Shown in pieces: positions 7,201 to 16,102 of a stretch of DNA of 64,000 nt (position 1 is the first letter of the stretch; each line of letters begins with the position of its first letter). This DNA is from Thermoproteota archaeon. Lineage in GTDB: Archaea > Korarchaeota > Korarchaeia > Korarchaeales > Korarchaeaceae. Under the pieces are notes generated by a model, which was not told the DNA's origin, ran no database searches, and saw only the letters and a program-made list of their open reading frames with translations. The DNA is taken from positions 303,112 to 367,111 of the forward strand of contig JAOZFN010000007.1 of NCBI GenBank assembly GCA_027492205.1. The letters are read 5' to 3'. The translations under genes were made by a program, and so were the position numbers.

Positions 7201-7462
7201 TGTATCGCGCTCGGTACTTTAAATGCCTAGTTAAGGCTGTAGGAACATGGGAAAGATTTCCTATTCACTGGCCGCAAGTCTCATGGGTAGAATTTCTTCC
7301 TGCACCTAAGCCACCTAGCTCGTCAGCTCTATTGGGCCAGCAAACGTTGTGGGCAGCAGATTCGGACAAACAGGTATTCTGATACCCCGAACTGTTGAAA
7401 AGAGAAAATATAACTGTTCTAGGGCAACTTTTATAAGGAATATAGCTGGAAACAAGAGTGTT

Positions 7463-8458
7463 ATGCAGGGGAACCCTTGGGCTAATCCAGGGATGGCCGT
7501 TAAAAAAGTACTCCTAAATACGGGTCTCTACCGGAAGGTCGAGGAGGAGTTCTTCGACCTGTTTGACCTGAAGACCAGCGGCGCCGAAGCAGTGCTGCTG
7601 GCCGCATATGGAAGTCACAGGTCGTTCTACCTTGTCGATGAAGACAGGGTGGCCATACCTCCCCGGGAAGAGGACCTGGTGGTTTGTCCTCCGGTGCCGC
7701 TTAGAGAACTGAGCCCAAGAGACGTTGTAAAAAGCCCAATGCCGACGGCTTGGCCCACTCACGATTGGGAACTCCTGAGAAGACTCCTAACCGGCGAGAA
7801 GTACGTTTTGCTGCGAGATGTCCGAGATGTCAGGAGTCTCCTAGAAAGAGTCAAGTCCGCAGGGATTGAACCTACTGACGTGCTCGTGGCTCCGGTTCTT
7901 TCAGATTTCAGGCCGGACTGGGAACCCGGCTTTCTAGTGTACCTTGCCGGATTGGCCTTGAGGTCCCGGGGTTACCTAGTGGCAGGGGAGGGTCCCGGTC
8001 CGCTGAGGTTCTTCGGTCCCGACCTGTGCGCCTTCAGAACCAGTCAATTCTGCGAGGGAGCCTTTCTACTGGAGCTTCTCCTAGGAAAGAAGTTGAAGAA
8101 AGGTTATTCAGAAGAGAGCGCTTGCGTTATAGAGGTGGAAGCTCAAAGGAGAATTTTAGACAGTAAGCACGGCGTGGCCCAGGCCCTGAAGTACGTTAAC
8201 TGGAGTGAAGGCCGTCTGGGCAAGGCTTTTGTCGCTGGCGCATTTCTCGAGGCTTATCAAATAGAAGAGGCAGTAAGGCGAGGATGCGGCGTTATATCTC
8301 TATCACCAGATGGCGATATTGTGTTTATAGATGCCAGAGATCTCTCCATCCAAGAACTCCAGCACGAATTTCTACAGTACGTGAGTGATGTAATCTCTCA
8401 GCTTGAATTACGCGCTGAGAGGTGTCCATTCTTACCTCGAAGGGAAGAGGTATCCTAG
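7463..8458 (+). CDS. PD-(D/E)XK nuclease-like protein (candidate)
   Basis: CVIEVEAQRRILDSKHGVAQALKYVN...AFVAGAFLEAYQIEEAVRRGCGVISL resembles E-x-(K/Q)...GxxQAxxY nuclease core; TATA-like cttttata ~30 nt upstream of ATG 7463. Confidence 0.45.
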   Translation: MQGNPWANPGMAVKKVLLNTGLYRKVEEEFFDLFDLKTSGAEAVLLAAYGSHRSFYLVDEDRVAIPPREEDLVVCPPVPLRELSPRDVVKSPMPTAWPTHDWELLRRLLTGEKYVLLRDVRDVRSLLERVKSAGIEPTDVLVAPVLSDFRPDWEPGFLVYLAGLALRSRGYLVAGEGPGPLRFFGPDLCAFRTSQFCEGAFLLELLLGKKLKKGYSEESACVIEVEAQRRILDSKHGVAQALKYVNWSEGRLGKAFVAGAFLEAYQIEEAVRRGCGVISLSPDGDIVFIDARDLSIQELQHEFLQYVSDVISQLELRAERCPFLPRREEVS

Positions 8459-8459
8459 A

Positions 8460-9498
8460 TCAGACATCTACAAGTTGACGGTAGTCTCTAATTCCGGCGG
8501 CCCTATCCAAGGCAACTCCTACTATCCTCTTTACCTCTCTGAGGTTTCTCTCCAGCTGATCGAAAGCGCTCATCCAAGGATTCCCGGTCTTGCGTTCCTT
8601 GGTAAAGTAGAGGAGCGTGTACCCTTCACTTCCCGAGTACACCTCTAACTTCTTCACCCTCATTGAGCTTTCTCTCAAAGCCCTCACGTACGCATCGACG
8701 ACCTTGTGGTAGGGGACTTCACCTAGCCTGAGGCGCTCCCTCCATAGAGCCTCATAGGCGGGCCCTAAGAACTTGGCACACTTGCTGGCCGGATCGGGTG
8801 GTCCTTTGAATTCTCTCCCTAGTGCCCTAGCTAGACCCACATGATTCAGCAGTACCATGACATCGGCTCCTCTGTCTACCAAGTCCATTAGGGTCTCATA
8901 GTAAACATTCGCTCCTTCGTTATCTGCGAACACTAATGCGTGCTCTCCTCTCTCCGGAGCGACTTCCTGCCAACCTTCGTTACAATCACCGTGACGAATA
9001 TCCACGCGAGGTATCGCTTGCTCGCCATTAGTCTCGGAGCCTATGGGCGTCACAAGATCATTCTCAAACATCCACTGAACCCTGGCCCTCAGGGCGTCTG
9101 CTCTGGCCTCTTTGATCTCAAATCCAACTACCTCATCAAAGGGTCCGTTTAGCTTCCCGCTGAGAATCAACGGGGTTGACCCTACTAGAAATTAGGGGCT
9201 CCCCGCTGGCCTCGAGTTTGTACAGCCTACAACCAGCTAGAAGATCAATGAACTTTATTTTCCTCGGCCAGATCGTTCTCCTTTGCTCTACACGTTTTCT
9301 CTGCTGGGACCTCATCACCCGTACATAGACATCGGCCATCCATGCCAGCGCGACGAGTTTTACGGCAGTTTTAGGCGAAGTTACCTCGTAGAACTCTTCT
9401 GAAACGCGGGATAGTTCTTTCCCTAACGTGATTATGTTCTCAAACTTAGAGGAAAGCCAGTCTAGGAGACTCGGATACCTGCTCCTTACTCTACGCAA
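8460..9498 (-). pseudogene. TcmP-like (three-Cys-motif partner) protein split by a +1 frameshift
   Basis: N-terminal part FIDLLAGCRLYKLEASGEPLIS in frame of ORF 9136..9567, continued by FLVGSTPLILSGKLNGPFDEVVGFEIKEARADALRARV in frame of ORF 8460..9170. Confidence 0.6.
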
Positions 9499-10463
9499 TT
9501 GCACCTGACCCCGCTCCACTCGGGATACGTGCCAGGCTCGGGCAGGAGATCTGAGAGCCTGCGCCACATCTCCGGCGTCTCCTTACACAGGGCAACGTCG
9601 CCTGAGTAGCCTAGCCTCCTCAGCTCCTCCAAAACGTACCTGTACATCTCCTCCCTCAGGTCAGGCTTGATCTTCAGTCCCCATCCGGTTTTCTCCCCGC
9701 CTCTCAGGTATTCGTGCCAGCTTCTATCCTTGGCAAACTTAACGGTCTTCCACAGTCCCCTGAGCGTCCCCAGAGTGATCCTGCTTGGCTCAAGCTCGTA
9801 CCTGTGCAGCGCGTCTTCCACCAGCTTCGAGTACTCCCCCCTCCACCCAGGGACCGGTATCATGGGGTCGAGCCTCAGCCTGAGCTCGAAGCCCTCTCTC
9901 TGCACGAGCCTGGCGGCGGCCATCCTGTCCTCCGGGCCAGGGGTCCCCCTCTCGTAGAGCCTGGCTGGCTTTGAAGCGTTGACCGAGAAGCTGACTACTA
10001 TAGCCTCCCTTGGGCCGCTCCACTCCAGTAGAGGCTGCACGTGCCTCACGCCGCCCTTGGTAACCATAAGGAACCTGTGGCCTGGGTGGGTCTCTAGGAG
10101 ATCTGAGATCACCTCTAGGAGCAGGTGAGTCCACTCAGGAATGGCCAGGCTGTCGCTCAGCTCCCCTGTATTCAGGAGCAGCCTCTCGCCCCTGGAGTCG
10201 GCCCAGGACAGGAGGTCCTCTAGCTCCGCCTTCAGCCCCTCTAGGTCCTTGAGCCTAGGGGTCTTGTTACCGAAGAACGTGCCCTGGAGATAGCAGTAGG
10301 AGCAGCCAAACGGGCAGCCGTTCGCCCACTTCAACTCCCAGAAGTGGGGGCAGACGATGTCGGAGGGCGTCTTGGCGAAGTAGACCACGTAGCGGGAGTT
10401 CTGCCACTTGAGTAGTGGCGACATAGGTTTTAGCTCGATGAAGTCCTCCTCCGTTCTCCTCAC
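9486..10463 (-). CDS. SPL-like radical SAM protein
   Basis: NGCPFGCSYCYLQGTFFGNKTPRL (CxxxCxxC with YCYLQ), GELSDSLA; C-terminal RCNC. Confidence 0.85.
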   Translation of the reverse strand: MRRTEEDFIELKPMSPLLKWQNSRYVVYFAKTPSDIVCPHFWELKWANGCPFGCSYCYLQGTFFGNKTPRLKDLEGLKAELEDLLSWADSRGERLLLNTGELSDSLAIPEWTHLLLEVISDLLETHPGHRFLMVTKGGVRHVQPLLEWSGPREAIVVSFSVNASKPARLYERGTPGPEDRMAAARLVQREGFELRLRLDPMIPVPGWRGEYSKLVEDALHRYELEPSRITLGTLRGLWKTVKFAKDRSWHEYLRGGEKTGWGLKIKPDLREEMYRYVLEELRRLGYSGDVALCKETPEMWRRLSDLLPEPGTYPEWSGVRCNCVE

Positions 10464-10498
10464 GGCCTCCTCTTCTGACTATAATGTGAGTGGATCGT

Positions 10499-12403
10499 TT
10501 AAGCGTTTGCAAGCCTAAGTAGGCAAAAGTATTCTCTGATCATCTCCAGCCGCTCTCTTGACTGAGGGGTCTCTATTAGGAAAGATTTGCCCGTCCCCCC
10601 AGAAGATAGGATAACGTCGCAGATCGTCTCTTCTATGAATCGCCTCCTATCAGAACTCTCGGAGAGTTCCTCCCAGGACTTCCTCTGCTCTTTAGAGAGG
10701 AGGAGTGACTTCCCGGTCTTAGACAGGGAGCCGAGACCCTCCCTTTCCAGAATCCTGAGCACCGCCATGAACCTCCCCACCGGAACTTGGGGAGGTGTGA
10801 GTCCGCTAGAGGAGTACACGGCGTCGAGTCTCGAGATCAGTATCTTATAGAGGGTGGAAACGCGCTTGCTGCTCTTGTCTTTTACCTCTCTCCTGAGAGC
10901 CTCGAGGAAGCTGGAGACTGACGCTCGCAGCAGGACGCGACTTTTCTCTTCTTCCCCTCCCTCTGCGACTACCTCTTGGACGGCTTGGGGGGTCAGCAGG
11001 AAGGCCAGAACCTCTCTGAGATCCCTTTCAAATGCTCCATACTTATCCAGAAACTCTGACCTCCACTCGCCCCTTAGGAGCAGGCTGAGCTTGAGCAGGA
11101 AGGGGTCCACCTCTATAATCCCAAGGGCATGGCCAGCCTTGGAGAACTCGGCCTCTAGTGCTGTCCGCTCATCTGGATACCATTCAGCAATGGAGAACAA
11201 CAGAACTGGAACATTTCTAAGCATGTTCAAGAGCTGATCCCGGTCTCTCTGGGATCTCTGCCAGGACCTCCCCGTCTTTATCTCCACAGCGATGCGTTGG
11301 ACGAGTCTGTTGCCCTTCTCTCCGGCTTCCGGTTTGTAGGTCCAGACGAGGTATTGGGCATCGGTGACGGCCCCTGGCAGCGACAGCCTGTCCCTCGAGA
11401 GAGTCGCCAAGTAGTCTAGCTTGGTCTCCCCGAGGCTCACAGTGACTGGAATAGCCCTGAGTTTCTTCCACATGAACTCCCTCCAGAGCTCTTCCACCTG
11501 CCTGCCGAGGTCAACGCTTGATCCCATCTCGGCTTCTGGATCAATATTATCCAGGATCTCCTGAAGCATTTCGGTGATGTACTTTATCACACCTCCTATC
11601 TCCCACATTAAAGCTCTGTCCTCGGCTTTCTTCCTCAGCAAGGGGTAGAGCACGCTGAAGTGTTTGTCCAGACTCACGCGATATGAATCCTTGTAGGCCC
11701 TGAAGAGGGCCATTACCTTGAGGGTTGCGTCCCGGGCGGCCTCAACTCTCTCGTCGTCAGGCATGCTCAGCCTGTACTCTCTAGACCTCGCAAGGAGTCT
11801 ATTAGCAAGCGCCCGATCTTTCTCAAACTCGGCTCTGACTCGTTTTGACATCATTAGGATGGCTGACCCTCTTGGCGGTCTATCCGACGAGCCCTCCGTT
11901 AGCCACCGAACTATATCTGCCAGATCCTCAAACCTCTTCCGGTCCCCCCTAGCCAAATCCCCAAGAAGCTGGTCCAATTCGTCCACTATCAGTACGACAG
12001 GCTTCTCTGCAGGTATAGAGACGATCTGTTGTAAAATCAATTCTCTTACGTCACACACCGGATCTAGGAAGACCCTCCTGACCTCGACTCCCCTCTTCTG
12101 AAGGAATTCCTTCAAGACAAAGCCCAGCTGAGACTTGCCGGATCCATACTCCCCGACAACCGAGACTATAGCCCCACGCCAGTCTCTATCCTTGAGATAA
12201 TTGAAGATAGCCCCATTTACTTGTCTGAGCCTTCTGACGTTTACGAAAAAGTCCTTGAGTTGATCTAGGGGGAACTCAATGGGCCTCCTATCAGACCACG
12301 ACTCTAGTACCTTGCCTAGCGAGCTGGGGTTGTACTTGGAGTATGTTTTAGAGAGGTTATAGAACTCCTCCCGTGCCTTGGAGAGAGATTCAGGATGAAT
12401 CAC
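10499..12403 (-). CDS. P-loop ATPase with candidate C-terminal PD-(D/E)XK nuclease segment
   Basis: Walker A VVGEYGSGKSQ, Walker B PVVLIVDELDQLL; KLDYLATL...QRIAVEIKTGRSWQRSQRDRDQLLNML nuclease-like; GTG start overlaps preceding stop (GTGA). Confidence 0.7.
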   Translation of the reverse strand: MIHPESLSKAREEFYNLSKTYSKYNPSSLGKVLESWSDRRPIEFPLDQLKDFFVNVRRLRQVNGAIFNYLKDRDWRGAIVSVVGEYGSGKSQLGFVLKEFLQKRGVEVRRVFLDPVCDVRELILQQIVSIPAEKPVVLIVDELDQLLGDLARGDRKRFEDLADIVRWLTEGSSDRPPRGSAILMMSKRVRAEFEKDRALANRLLARSREYRLSMPDDERVEAARDATLKVMALFRAYKDSYRVSLDKHFSVLYPLLRKKAEDRALMWEIGGVIKYITEMLQEILDNIDPEAEMGSSVDLGRQVEELWREFMWKKLRAIPVTVSLGETKLDYLATLSRDRLSLPGAVTDAQYLVWTYKPEAGEKGNRLVQRIAVEIKTGRSWQRSQRDRDQLLNMLRNVPVLLFSIAEWYPDERTALEAEFSKAGHALGIIEVDPFLLKLSLLLRGEWRSEFLDKYGAFERDLREVLAFLLTPQAVQEVVAEGGEEEKSRVLLRASVSSFLEALRREVKDKSSKRVSTLYKILISRLDAVYSSSGLTPPQVPVGRFMAVLRILEREGLGSLSKTGKSLLLSKEQRKSWEELSESSDRRRFIEETICDVILSSGGTGKSFLIETPQSRERLEMIREYFCLLRLANA

Positions 12404-13128
12404 AGCTCCCACCTCGCCGAGATCTTGGCCCTGCTGGGTATCACGAGCTCGCAGTAGGTCTCCCCGGTCACCCTGTCCTGCCACGTGGAGAACACCCTGC
12501 CCCCGAGACCGGGCGGTAACCTGTCTAGGTCCTCGGCGGACTCGAGGACGTCCCTGTAGGGCTCCAAGACCGGTATCCTCACGAGTCCCCGCTTCCAGAG
12601 CGACACTAGGATGTCCCGCACCCCGTCCCCGTACACCCTAGCCAGCGTGCCGTAAGTCACCGCACCCCTAGACCTCACGTCCTCGAGCACGGCCTCCTCC
12701 AGGGAGGTCGTGAGCACGGGAACCCTCCTCTCCCGGACGAGGTTGAGCTCAACCAGCCACCTGGCCAAGGCGCGGGCCTCCGTAGTCGTGACCTCGACTC
12801 CGAGTGAGGCGAGCGCCGCGGACAGAGAGCCCGGAGTGAGGGGGACGGAACTCCGGGTGAGCGCCCCTACGGCCTCGGCGAGCCTGAACTCCCTCATTAT
12901 GGCGTTTGCTAGGGACTCTCGGAAGTCATCGAGGGACCTTAGGTCGTCGACTCTTTGGAGCACCCACTCGAGGGTCTTGACGTACCGTGAGGCCGTCCTG
13001 GTGGACTTCACCCCGAGGATCTCGGCCGCGTCCTTCTCCCCCTTCAGCCTGCTTCTAGCGAGGGCAAGTCTGTAGAGTCCACTAATCCTGGTGGGATAGA
13101 AGCGGCTTGACCGGCGCATGATCCGCAC
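12400..13128 (-). CDS. Winged-helix DNA-binding-like protein, first gene of operon
   Basis: HTH-like segments GEKDAAEILGVKSTRTASRYVKTLEWVL and RGAVTYGTLARVYGDGVRDILVSLWKRGLV; TATA-like ccaatattta upstream. Confidence 0.5.
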   Translation of the reverse strand: MRIMRRSSRFYPTRISGLYRLALARSRLKGEKDAAEILGVKSTRTASRYVKTLEWVLQRVDDLRSLDDFRESLANAIMREFRLAEAVGALTRSSVPLTPGSLSAALASLGVEVTTTEARALARWLVELNLVRERRVPVLTTSLEEAVLEDVRSRGAVTYGTLARVYGDGVRDILVSLWKRGLVRIPVLEPYRDVLESAEDLDRLPPGLGGRVFSTWQDRVTGETYCELVIPSRAKISARWEL

Positions 13129-13338
13129 CTCAGAGGGCCCCTAAATATTGGAAAAAGTTTGTGCATCAGTCTGGGGATTGCCTATCTGGACTGAGCGGAG
13201 AGCGCGTGATCACGACATCGTCCCTCCGAAGGATGCGCAGAAGCCCAAGCCCGCTGAATCTGCCTTGGTTCAGGGGCGCTGGACGGCCGCTGCGTTCACG
13301 CGGGCCGCGCTCCCTGCCGAGCCAACCCAACTCTTTTT

Positions 13339-13363
13339 GTAGTACGTACTACCCACTACCCAC
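13339..13363. promoter_or_regulatory. Candidate VapB/AbrB operator: perfect palindrome GTAGTACGTACTAC plus CCCACTACCCAC just upstream of antitoxin ATG
   Basis: Direct reading; 12-mer recurs reverse-complemented at 19572-19583. Confidence 0.55.
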
Positions 13364-13364
13364 G

Positions 13365-13604
13365 ATGGGCGAGGTCGTCAGGGTCACGAGGAAGTTTCAG
13401 ATGACGATCCCCAGGAGGGTAAGGGAGGCGCTGGGGATCAGGGTGGGCGATAGGCTGGAGGTGGATGTCGAGGGAGATCGAATCGTCGTGAGGCCCCTGA
13501 GGCCCAGGGTAGAGGACCCGGTGGAGGCGCTCCTGTCGCTTGTGAGGGAGCCCGTGGACGTGGATGCGGTGAGGCTCGTAGAGGAGTCCTGGGGCGAGGA
13601 CTGA
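13365..13604 (+). CDS. vapB: AbrB/MazE-family antitoxin (VapB)
   Basis: VVRVTRKFQMTIPRRVREALGIRVGDRLEVDVEGDRIVVRPL. Confidence 0.85.
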   Translation: MGEVVRVTRKFQMTIPRRVREALGIRVGDRLEVDVEGDRIVVRPLRPRVEDPVEALLSLVREPVDVDAVRLVEESWGED

Positions 13605-13606
13605 TC

Positions 13607-14164
13607 TTGGGAGGCGCGGTCCGAGGGAGCCCGTGGAGGGCGGGGTCCGAGGGTGAGGGGGGGCGAGAACTAGTGGAGGCCTATGTGGACACGAACGTAT
13701 ACGTCTACGTGGCCCTCAGGCACCCGGAGTTCGGCGAACTCTGCGCGCGCATACTGAGGGCCGTTGTGTCCGGCGAGCTGAGGGCCGCCGGTTCCGACCT
13801 GGTGGCCATTGAGCTCCTCGGCTCCCTGGCCAGGGTGGGCCCCGAGGTGGCCAGGGGCGCGCTCGAGGCCTACCTGGCGATGCCCGTCAGGAGGCTCGAG
13901 GTCGACGAGAGGGTCCTCAGGGCGGCCGCCCTGATCAACGGGGTGGTGAACGTCGGTTACGACGCGATCCACGCCGCGCTCATGCTCCTGAACGGGGTCG
14001 GAGCCGTCGTGACCAACGACCTGGGGGACTGGGTCAGGCTGGCCAAGAGGCTGACGGACGTGGCCTCAACAATCGAGGAGGGTGAAATCCAGGTGAGGTC
14101 CCGAGAGCTGGCGGTGATCAGCCCGAGGTCCTTCCCCCGGCCCGTGGAGGTCGGCTCGGCGTGA
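13607..14164 (+). CDS. vapC: PIN-domain toxin (VapC); likely start GTG 13673
   Basis: VEAYVDTNVYVYVAL...VGYDAIHAALMLLNGVGAVVTNDLGDW. Confidence 0.85.
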   Translation: MGGAVRGSPWRAGSEGEGGRELVEAYVDTNVYVYVALRHPEFGELCARILRAVVSGELRAAGSDLVAIELLGSLARVGPEVARGALEAYLAMPVRRLEVDERVLRAAALINGVVNVGYDAIHAALMLLNGVGAVVTNDLGDWVRLAKRLTDVASTIEEGEIQVRSRELAVISPRSFPRPVEVGSA

Positions 14165-14239
14165 GCCCGTGGGGGTTGGCGGCTTCATCCGAGAATTTAT
14201 ATCTCTCCGACAATAAAACCTCTTCTGAGGAATGCACAA

Positions 14240-14491
14240 ATGTCTGAGGTGGTGCTGAGGGTCGGGAAGAGGGGGGAGATCTACACGACCAGGGAGCTGA
14301 GGGAGCTGGCGGGCATCAGGGAGGGCGGGAGGGTCAGGGCCAGGGTCGAGCGGGGCAGGGTGATCATCGAGCCCCTGCCCACCTTGGAGGAGCTCATCCG
14401 GGAGCCGGTGGTGGAGGTGAGCCCGGAGGAGGCCGAGAGGCTGAGCGAGGAGGCCCAGAGGGAGGTCGGCTCCCGCGATCTCGGGGGGTGA
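14240..14491 (+). CDS. vapB: AbrB-family antitoxin (VapB)
   Basis: LRVGKRGEIYTTRELRELAGIREGGRVRARVERGRVIIEPLPTLEELI; followed by PIN ORF with GTGA overlap. Confidence 0.8.
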   Translation: MSEVVLRVGKRGEIYTTRELRELAGIREGGRVRARVERGRVIIEPLPTLEELIREPVVEVSPEEAERLSEEAQREVGSRDLGG

Positions 14492-15105
14492 ACGCGCTGC
14501 CGGAGGTGAGGGCCGGGCCCGGGCTCACTCCGGGCGAGCCACCGGGTGCGGGTGAATCTGACTCTGTGGCCGGGGCCGGCGTCAGGTTTGGCGCCGAGGC
14601 CGAGGCTGGGAGCCGTGCAGAGGCGGGACCGGAGCTGATCCTGGACACCACGTACCTCCTCCCCATATTCGGCGTCGGCGTGGGGCTCCCGAGGTACGAG
14701 TCCCTGTTCCCCAGGCTCCTGGAGACGTTGAGCGTCGGGTACAACCCCGTCTCCCTCGTGGAGGCCAAGTGGATTTCTCTCGGCCTGGCCAGGGATCACC
14801 CGGACAGGCGCGACAGGCTCCTCTCGGCCTACCGCAGGGGCCTGGCCGCGATCCTGGCCGACGAGAGGATCTCGGCCACCGAGCTCACCGGCCCGGAGGT
14901 GGAGGCCGTTGCGGACCGGCTCCTCCTCGAGTTCGGGCTGGCGGACTACTTCGACAGGGTGATCTACGCGACGGCCGTCGTCGGGAGCGCGGCCCTGCTG
15001 ACGGAGGACGGGGAGCTCCTGAGGCTCGCCAGATCGCCGGAGGCCCCGAGGCCGAGGGAGGCGCTGAGGTGGGCCGACGTTCCCGGGAGGCTCCTCGGCG
15101 ATTGA
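14488..15105 (+). CDS. vapC: PIN-domain toxin with ~48-aa low-complexity N-terminal extension
   Basis: ELILDTTYLLPIFGVGV...FDRVIYATAVVGSAALLTEDGELL. Confidence 0.75.
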   Translation: MNALPEVRAGPGLTPGEPPGAGESDSVAGAGVRFGAEAEAGSRAEAGPELILDTTYLLPIFGVGVGLPRYESLFPRLLETLSVGYNPVSLVEAKWISLGLARDHPDRRDRLLSAYRRGLAAILADERISATELTGPEVEAVADRLLLEFGLADYFDRVIYATAVVGSAALLTEDGELLRLARSPEAPRPREALRWADVPGRLLGD

Positions 15106-15408: not shown

Positions 15409-16102
15409 CTGAACTGGACCCAAGACCCGAGGTGGGCAAGGATCCGCGCGCGGGGGTAAGCCTCCAGAAGCGCCTCTATCCAGGGTCCTCGGGATCTCCC
15501 TAAACTTGTCCGGAATACACCCAGCTAGGATCGTTGAGGTCGACTCAAACCTGATGAGACTAGCCTCCCTTCAGGGCTGAGTACGCCTGGGATGGGAGTT
15601 CCCAAATCGTTATGGGGCGTTCGAGAGGGACTTGGAGGAGGTTATGCCTATCCTGCTCGGCCCGATCTTCCCCGCCCCTTTGGCGTCGAGACTGCCCTCC
15701 AGATACACCGCCGAGTCTGCTGGGGGCGCCTCACTACTCGAAGCCCGATCTAGCAAGGAAGTCGCTGCGATCAGGGGCGGCCATAGGTCTCTTAGCAGAC
15801 GAGATAGCTCGGGGCGTAGACAGATCCAGCTGGAAGAGAATAGACAGCCGTTCTAGTTAGAGCTGGTCGCTCAGCAGTCCGGTCTCGTTAAGTTCCTCCA
15901 ATCCGCACTCAGCGAGATTCCACAAACCCGCTCAACTCTTTGAGGAGGTAACGATCGCTGCGCGATTCCCCGCGCATGGGCGTCACGCGAGTGGGCAGGC
16001 CGTTTTTATTTGGAGAACTGTAGGGCTGCGCTGTGCACTTCATCACAGCAAAGCGAAAGGCGCGTTCACTTTTATTGTAACCTATGAGTTCTGACCGCCG
16101 AC

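Follow-up and report, generated by a model that had tools for sequence, protein, structure and literature searches.

Two separately inherited gene pairs, an HTH/ATPase-nuclease pair and a radical SAM/TcmP pair, lie side by side in a korarchaeal genome

The locus

Four closely spaced genes on one strand, placed between restriction and toxin-antitoxin genes, raise the question of whether they form one functional unit. Such a set lies at 8,460-13,128 of the window, by which we mean the whole stretch of DNA that was analysed (64,000 nucleotides of contig JAOZFN010000007.1, from a member of the Korarchaeaceae whose genome comprises 1.94 Mb in 17 contigs). A sequence-only reading had proposed a single module, possibly for defence, in which a radical SAM enzyme and a TcmP-like protein modify nucleic acid while a winged-helix (wHTH) protein and an ATPase with a nuclease segment sense or cleave it. 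The features of the region are listed below; the HTH and ATPase genes are referred to as pair 1, the radical SAM and TcmP-like genes as pair 2, and spore photoproduct lyase as SPL.

12400..13119 (-): HTH (winged-helix-type) DNA-binding protein with two HTHs, first gene of pair 1; the open reading frame reaches 13,128
10499..12403 (-): predicted AAA+ ATPase with an embedded PD-(D/E)XK nuclease domain; Walker A GEYGSGKS; nuclease residues E304, D348, E374-x-K376 and Q390
9486..10463 (-): SPL-fold radical SAM enzyme, intact; C50/C54/C57 cluster motif, E101, C38, C293, C321 and C323
9136..9567 (-): TcmP-like class I methyltransferase gene, N-terminal part; motif I is DLLAGCR
8460..9170 (-): TcmP-like gene, C-terminal part, in another reading frame; GS, a motif IV-like Asp and a late Tyr are retained
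7349-8458 (+): 369-aa protein P0006, convergent with the TcmP gene, 1 nt between the ends
13161-15105 (+): two AbrB-like/PIN-like toxin-antitoxin pairs, assigned by eye, directly upstream of the wHTH gene and divergent from it
15518-15667 (+): ATPase-like fragment of 50 residues, 52% identical to ATPase residues 452-500

The minus-strand set was present with its four features as had been claimed, and most details of the earlier description were reproduced. At 12,400-12,403, a shared 4-nt GTGA contains both the stop of the wHTH gene and the GTG with which the ATPase gene begins, and the 35-nt gap is at 10,464-10,498, ahead of the radical SAM GTG. The ATPase carries Walker A (GEYGSGKS) and Walker B (VLIVDELDQ) motifs, the radical SAM protein contains the signature CPFGCSYCYLQ, and the position beside restriction and toxin-antitoxin genes was also borne out. 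Two details had to be amended. The VEIKTG nuclease-like segment exists, but it is located in the middle of the protein (residues ~296-405 of 634) and not at the C terminus; the radical SAM gene does overlap a TcmP-like frame, but only the N-terminal one, and TcmP is not a single frame. The wHTH start is probably the ATG at 13,119, because homologues begin at the equivalent position, and the radical SAM start may be the ATG at 10,424, which is the start used by its closest relative.

One unit or two pairs

To collect relatives of the radical SAM gene, an alignment-based scan was needed, as scanning the genome contigs directly with a single sequence yielded no hits; the alignment-based scan gave 80 loci, and 4 more came from viral contigs. 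The wHTH and ATPase profiles matched in none of these 84 fetched loci, and the radical SAM family was absent from all other korarchaeal wHTH-ATPase loci examined. One relative (G008) has both pairs, located apart on contigs C25 (pair 1) and C167 (pair 2). Among the fetched loci, the order of the four genes was retained in no other genome. A conserved four-gene cassette was rejected, since a second instance was not found among the fetched loci of either pair.

A single defence module might nevertheless have been assembled recently in the window's lineage, as the sequence-only reading would have it, and the common strand, the 35-nt gap between the pairs and the adjoining type IIG restriction gene and toxin-antitoxin pairs fit such a module. 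We consider it highly improbable, because each pair is found without the other at its remaining loci, the two are separated in G008, and in the window itself the TcmP gene is frame-broken whereas the ATPase gene is intact. The four-gene stretch is best explained as two separately inherited gene pairs that happen to be same-strand neighbours.

Pair 1 is inherited with the Korarchaeaceae

The profile of the pair-1 ATPase had strong matches in 16 of 397 genomes (the window's included), all of one family, the Korarchaeaceae; outside this family the 397 genomes gave only two marginal matches, with E about 5e-6. Within genus g3, 14 of the 16 listed genomes sampled carried pair 1. The HTH gene adjoins the ATPase gene in all full pair-1 loci, and the two genes, which overlap by 4 nt in the window, overlap by 8-29 nt in 10 of the 10 other full-length korarchaeal loci aligned. 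Since the overlap was kept in all ten, it is not a matter of chance. Pairwise identities for pair 1 follow those of the RNA polymerase protein RpoA1 (Spearman 0.91 and 0.87; Mantel r 0.82 and 0.78), so pair 1 is inherited along with the lineage, although it is fast-evolving. Its neighbours vary by sub-clade and, judged by eye, are apparently ordinary metabolic or transport genes, such as those for an MFS transporter, a short-chain dehydrogenase, glycine dehydrogenase subunits and an ABC transporter; no link of pair 1 to defence was found. Pair 1 behaves as a vertically inherited, Korarchaeaceae-specific pair and not as a mobile defence cassette.

The nuclease assignment of the earlier reading held for both motif and fold elements. 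Residues E304, D348, E374-x-K376 and Q390 of the ATPase did not vary among 11 homologues, the most distant of which has 23% identity, and in the AlphaFold model (pLDDT 82.7) they sit on a predicted helix-strands-helix-strand order at 296-405 that is typical of a PD-(D/E)XK nuclease. The mid-protein segment is accordingly described here as a predicted PD-(D/E)XK core with D and ExK in its putative active site. The P-loop part resembles AAA, AAA_22 and nSTAND ATPases, and the HTH protein members have weak matches to HTH_11, HTH_23, HTH_36 and TrmB. A PDB search with the whole ATPase model gave no match at E below 1e-3, and a PDB sequence search with the HTH profile returned empty or chance matches. 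The ATPase has weak fold matches only to Rif2/ORC4 (ORC/Cdc6-type AAA+), and it has the E-D-ExK-Q pattern on an alpha/beta core in common with Hjc/RecB-like PD-(D/E)XK nucleases. In contrast to both groups, pair 1 joins the ATPase and the nuclease in one protein and adds an HTH partner, a combination that, among the genomes searched, was encountered in Korarchaeaceae only. Membership of pair 1 in BREX/Ssp systems (BrxA, BrxC/D, SspC) was considered and rejected, as only sub-threshold P-loop/HTH matches with E of 0.0009-0.08 were obtained. Pair 1 may serve genome maintenance, cleaving or processing DNA in an ATP-dependent manner at sites chosen by the HTH protein, separately from pair 2.

Some further observations were made around pair-1 genes. 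The fragment at 15518-15667 of the window (+) contains an internal stop and appears to be a relic of a second pair-1 ATPase gene. On contig C25 of G008 (L054:16400-20000), which bears divergent pair-1 genes, spurious open reading frames repeat NLCIET/MQRGLK-type peptides, indicating a CRISPR-like repeat array. At two loci (L042 and L043), an ORF of 123 aa lies ~1.5 kb upstream on the opposite strand and is weakly similar to the HTH protein of pair 1 in its N-terminal HTH.

The radical SAM family resembles SPL but lacks its catalytic cysteine

The radical SAM gene of the window is intact, with all family-invariant residues retained. The family signature comprises C38, C50-C54-C57, G100-E101, D104, N162, R197, D199, C293-K-E and C321-x-C323. 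Each of the 76 strong members carried it in full or almost in full, which 19 weaker relatives did not, and the hallmarks were invariant in 58 of 58 TcmP-paired and 16-18 of 18 unpaired members. The earlier assignment as SPL-like was supported by the profile, by alignment to PDB chains and by a fold search with an AlphaFold model. In Pfam, the window protein matches SPL (PF20903, E 4e-13) and the general radical SAM model, and it shares with SPL (PF20903, TIGR04070; PDB 4fhc and others) the radical SAM fold and a CxxxCxxC followed by YLQ, with ~180 residues aligned. Its TIGR04070 score of 59.3 bits, against an equivalog cut-off of 400, places it below the SPL equivalog. No PADLOC model was matched by this protein or its relatives.

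In a profile alignment with solved SPL chains, the catalytic Cys140 was replaced by the Glu of a GE(L/I) motif, and this residue, E101, was invariant in 76 of the 76 strong members. Since E101 stands at the place of Cys140, the known SP-lyase chemistry is unlikely; classical SP lyase activity was disfavoured on the loss of this hydrogen donor. The family further differs from SPL in having four additional invariant cysteines, a C-N-C at the C terminus and TcmP as a paired or fused partner. The four cysteines may hold an auxiliary cluster.

Recurrent pairing and fusion with TcmP

When duplicates were removed, 66 loci with close relatives remained, and 17 distant SPL-like loci served as controls. 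A TcmP gene was found within 600 nt in 49 of the 66 loci and in 0 of the 17 controls (p = 1e-8), so the proposed partnership was borne out by the TcmP genes near the relatives. The arrangement is radical-SAM-first in 19 cases, convergent in 15, TcmP-first in 10 and fused in 5. In all fused loci (L083, L087, L098, L109 and L114) TcmP is N-terminal and radical SAM C-terminal; the fused proteins lie in separate parts of the tree, on which fusion needs 4 changes, at least 3 of them forced by well-supported branches.

For the fusion of L114, AlphaFold gave a model with a pLDDT of 87.4 and a pTM of 0.56, and because of the latter value the packing of the domains is not established. Against the PDB, the model matched the spore photoproduct lyase 4fhc (E 1.3e-11), consistent with the SPL-type partial TIM barrel and CxxxCxxC cluster motif of the radical SAM family. 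The TcmP half matched class I methyltransferases, namely histamine methyltransferase (2.5e-4), Coq5 (5.5e-4), CmoA (6.6e-4) and MnmM (7.3e-4). By the model and these matches, pair 2 is an SPL-fold radical domain with a class I methyltransferase domain.

The radical SAM and TcmP genes are present in many archaeal and bacterial phyla, and of 150 archaeal genomes only 3 besides the window's had the radical SAM gene at E below 1e-50. The tree does not separate archaea from bacteria: Nitrospirae, for example, fall within a hydrothermarchaeal clade and Zixibacteria next to Methanosarcinales, a pattern compatible with horizontal transfer. The window protein grouped with that of L063 (Methanomethylicota), then with L064 (Njordarchaeota) and L065. 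In phage and plasmid collections, only distant SPL-type relatives were found.

At L063, the closest relative, the radical SAM gene follows that of a small protein in which a stretch GGRLDISIGG...ELK looks nuclease-like (L063:71-589, L063:643-2717), and it is convergent with a second radical SAM gene of the same family; a PDB sequence search with the small protein returned empty or chance matches. Two different radical SAM genes of the family together with TcmP were also seen at L067, L075, L091, L092, L093, L112 and L143-L145. The second copies at these latter loci form a clade of their own, and the loci suggest heteromeric radical SAM pairs.

The TcmP-like gene of the window is broken in this assembly

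With a profile of 24 TcmP relatives, positions 9-99 were found in the ORF at 9,136-9,567 and positions 87-313 in the ORF at 8,460-9,170, so that homology over the length of TcmP is provided by the two halves together, with the frame change near 9,170-9,200. Neither half matches TIGR04474 (cut-off 53 bits), whereas intact TcmP partners of the same radical SAM family are full-length and score above it (75, 108 and 219 bits); the window gene is split, diverged and undetected by this model. The C-terminal half matches the PADLOC candidate PDC-M41A weakly (E 0.0019), while intact relatives match PDC-M30A/PDC-M41A with values up to 1e-60; the radical SAM partner is without a PADLOC model. Motif I reads DLLAGCR in the window against D-x-F/L-A-G-x-G in relatives, its last glycine, 98% conserved among 49 other TcmP sequences, being Arg. 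The seven fully invariant TcmP positions are all present when both frames are counted. The window does not contain a single open TcmP gene with the near-invariant motif I (D-x-x-A-G-x-G), and the gene is either recently broken or affected by an assembly error. Unless the break is such an error, pair 2 is probably impaired in this genome.

Real biology behind the split, with two interacting polypeptides or programmed +1 frameshifting yielding a functional protein, would accord with the survival of all seven invariant positions over two frames, a sign of slight decay, and with a second gene (L097) whose break falls in the loop that is also affected here, the one joining motif I to the GS motif. 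This seems quite improbable to us: the break falls inside the methyltransferase fold, the one at L097 lies in a run of eight G and points to a sequencing or slippage error, a third split gene (L077) is broken at another place, TcmP is read in one frame at the other paired loci, and the window has Arg in place of the near-invariant glycine of motif I. Programmed frameshifting in particular was considered unlikely, as a +1 shift would be required, most relatives are single-frame and the L097 break is in the eight-G run.

TcmP is also found in a defence setting in Sinorhizobium meliloti, where the TcmP gene SMa2243 is listed beside hna (SMa2245), the gene of an anti-phage helicase, among genes with a similar expression change (PMC12445080). 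No Hna-type helicase was seen in the window.

Genomic context of pair 2

Restriction-type neighbours of pair 2 are type I-, IIG- and III-like. A IIG-type gene runs into TcmP at L099 and L098, and at L130 a IIG gene ends 4 nt ahead of radical SAM. At L113, an HsdM-like gene with HSDR_N is followed by an HsdS that overlaps radical SAM, at L105 a ResIII/RE_endonuc gene overlaps, and at L116 a DUF1156 methylase lies 52 nt ahead; further restriction or DNA-methylase cases are 1.5-5 kb from the pair. In the window, the neighbours are an intact type IIG enzyme (PADLOC 1,091 bits) and the unassigned protein P0006. Restriction-type genes were present in 10 of 66 loci and 0 of 17 controls, a difference that is not significant (p = 0.11). 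Defence-gene enrichment around radical SAM and TcmP is thus not proven. Neighbouring proteins matched 158 PADLOC families in the TcmP-linked set and 13 in the control set, but these counts are of families, not loci, and give no clean enrichment test.

ParB_N genes were found at six loci (immediately ahead of the pair in L066, L068, L072 and L090, and a short distance away in L112 and L146), making a three-gene cassette of ParB_N, radical SAM and TcmP possible. At L114, recA, recX-like and alaS genes are nearby, and at L074 recX-like and alaS genes; one archaeal locus adjoins a family B DNA polymerase-like gene (by eye), and several loci have ordinary neighbours. A recA-operon reading of L107 and L110 was dropped, since the upstream genes there are not recA.

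Some of the ParB_N proteins beside pair 2, which come from several archaeal phyla and one viral contig, have a C-terminal zinc-finger-like segment. In the window, P0006 (7349-8458, +) contains, by eye, a nuclease-like segment, VIEVEA...HGVAQALKYV; searches of Pfam, NCBIfam, PADLOC and the PDB gave no match to it, and none of 149 related genomes had a homologue.

What pair 2 may do

Since restriction, DUF1156 methylase or ParB genes directly abut pair 2 in several loci, DNA is suggested as its substrate, and this is the best-supported choice. We propose, at not quite an even chance, that pair 2 modifies DNA. TcmP would bind the nucleic-acid substrate (and SAM). The radical SAM partner, in which Glu replaces the hydrogen-donor cysteine of SPL and the four extra cysteines may hold an auxiliary cluster, would act on an unactivated base carbon by means of a 5'-deoxyadenosyl radical. 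The resulting modified base would label DNA as self where restriction genes are at hand (type I-, IIG- and III-like, DUF1156 and ParB neighbours). It is a more speculative possibility that restriction-modification operons of several kinds have independently recruited pair 2 as a radical module for DNA base modification, providing an undescribed carbon-level mark of self and non-self in archaea and bacteria. Nucleic-acid modification by radical SAM and TcmP, as in the sequence-only reading, is still reasonable; its joint action with wHTH-ATPase did not stand.

Pair 2 might instead repair DNA lesions and install no modification, the SPL-like enzyme carrying out the repair while its methyltransferase-fold partner binds the DNA. 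The nearest solved structures are indeed spore photoproduct lyases, and the two bacterial loci with recX/alaS, one also with recA, and the archaeal locus beside the polymerase-like gene are in keeping with repair. Against this, the hydrogen-donor Cys140 of SPL is an invariant Glu, and neither a methyltransferase-fold partner nor restriction-operon contexts would be expected for lesion reversal, so we regard repair as unlikely. A similarly low probability is assigned to modification of tRNA or rRNA with the class I methyltransferase-fold part as an RNA methyltransferase. Methylation and methylthiolation of RNA by radical SAM enzymes are established chemistry, and the best methyltransferase fold matches include the RNA-modification enzymes CmoA, MnmM and Trm5a. 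However, the distribution is sporadic, as given by the 3 other of 150 archaeal genomes, phyla are mixed on the tree, DNA restriction and ParB genes are the neighbours, and the only recurring translation gene nearby is alaS, at two or three loci. Functions other than DNA modification, repair and RNA modification account for the remainder.

Significance

Taken as a whole, the explanation by two gene pairs with their proposed mechanisms has a probability of roughly 0.6, the anatomy being well shown and the mechanism weaker. In the literature on TcmP and SPL-like radical SAM in defence, a scope outside which preprints and many subscription papers fell, no published function was found for pair 2. 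TcmP and SPL are known families; within the same scope, no account was found of how they recurrently pair and repeatedly fuse, of the Cys-to-Glu signature or of the settings in restriction operons.

The locus illustrates that short gaps and a common strand are insufficient grounds for calling a defence operon. Pair 1 represents a lineage-specific korarchaeal ATPase-nuclease, with no counterpart found in the genomes searched, that may be relevant to genome maintenance. For pair 2, the repeated fusions, the invariant Glu where SPL has its cysteine and the additional cysteines are concrete handles for experiments. If pair 2 modifies DNA, radical chemistry on unactivated carbons would join the known routes of marking self DNA, and TcmP, a family on defence-candidate lists without known activity, would gain a function.
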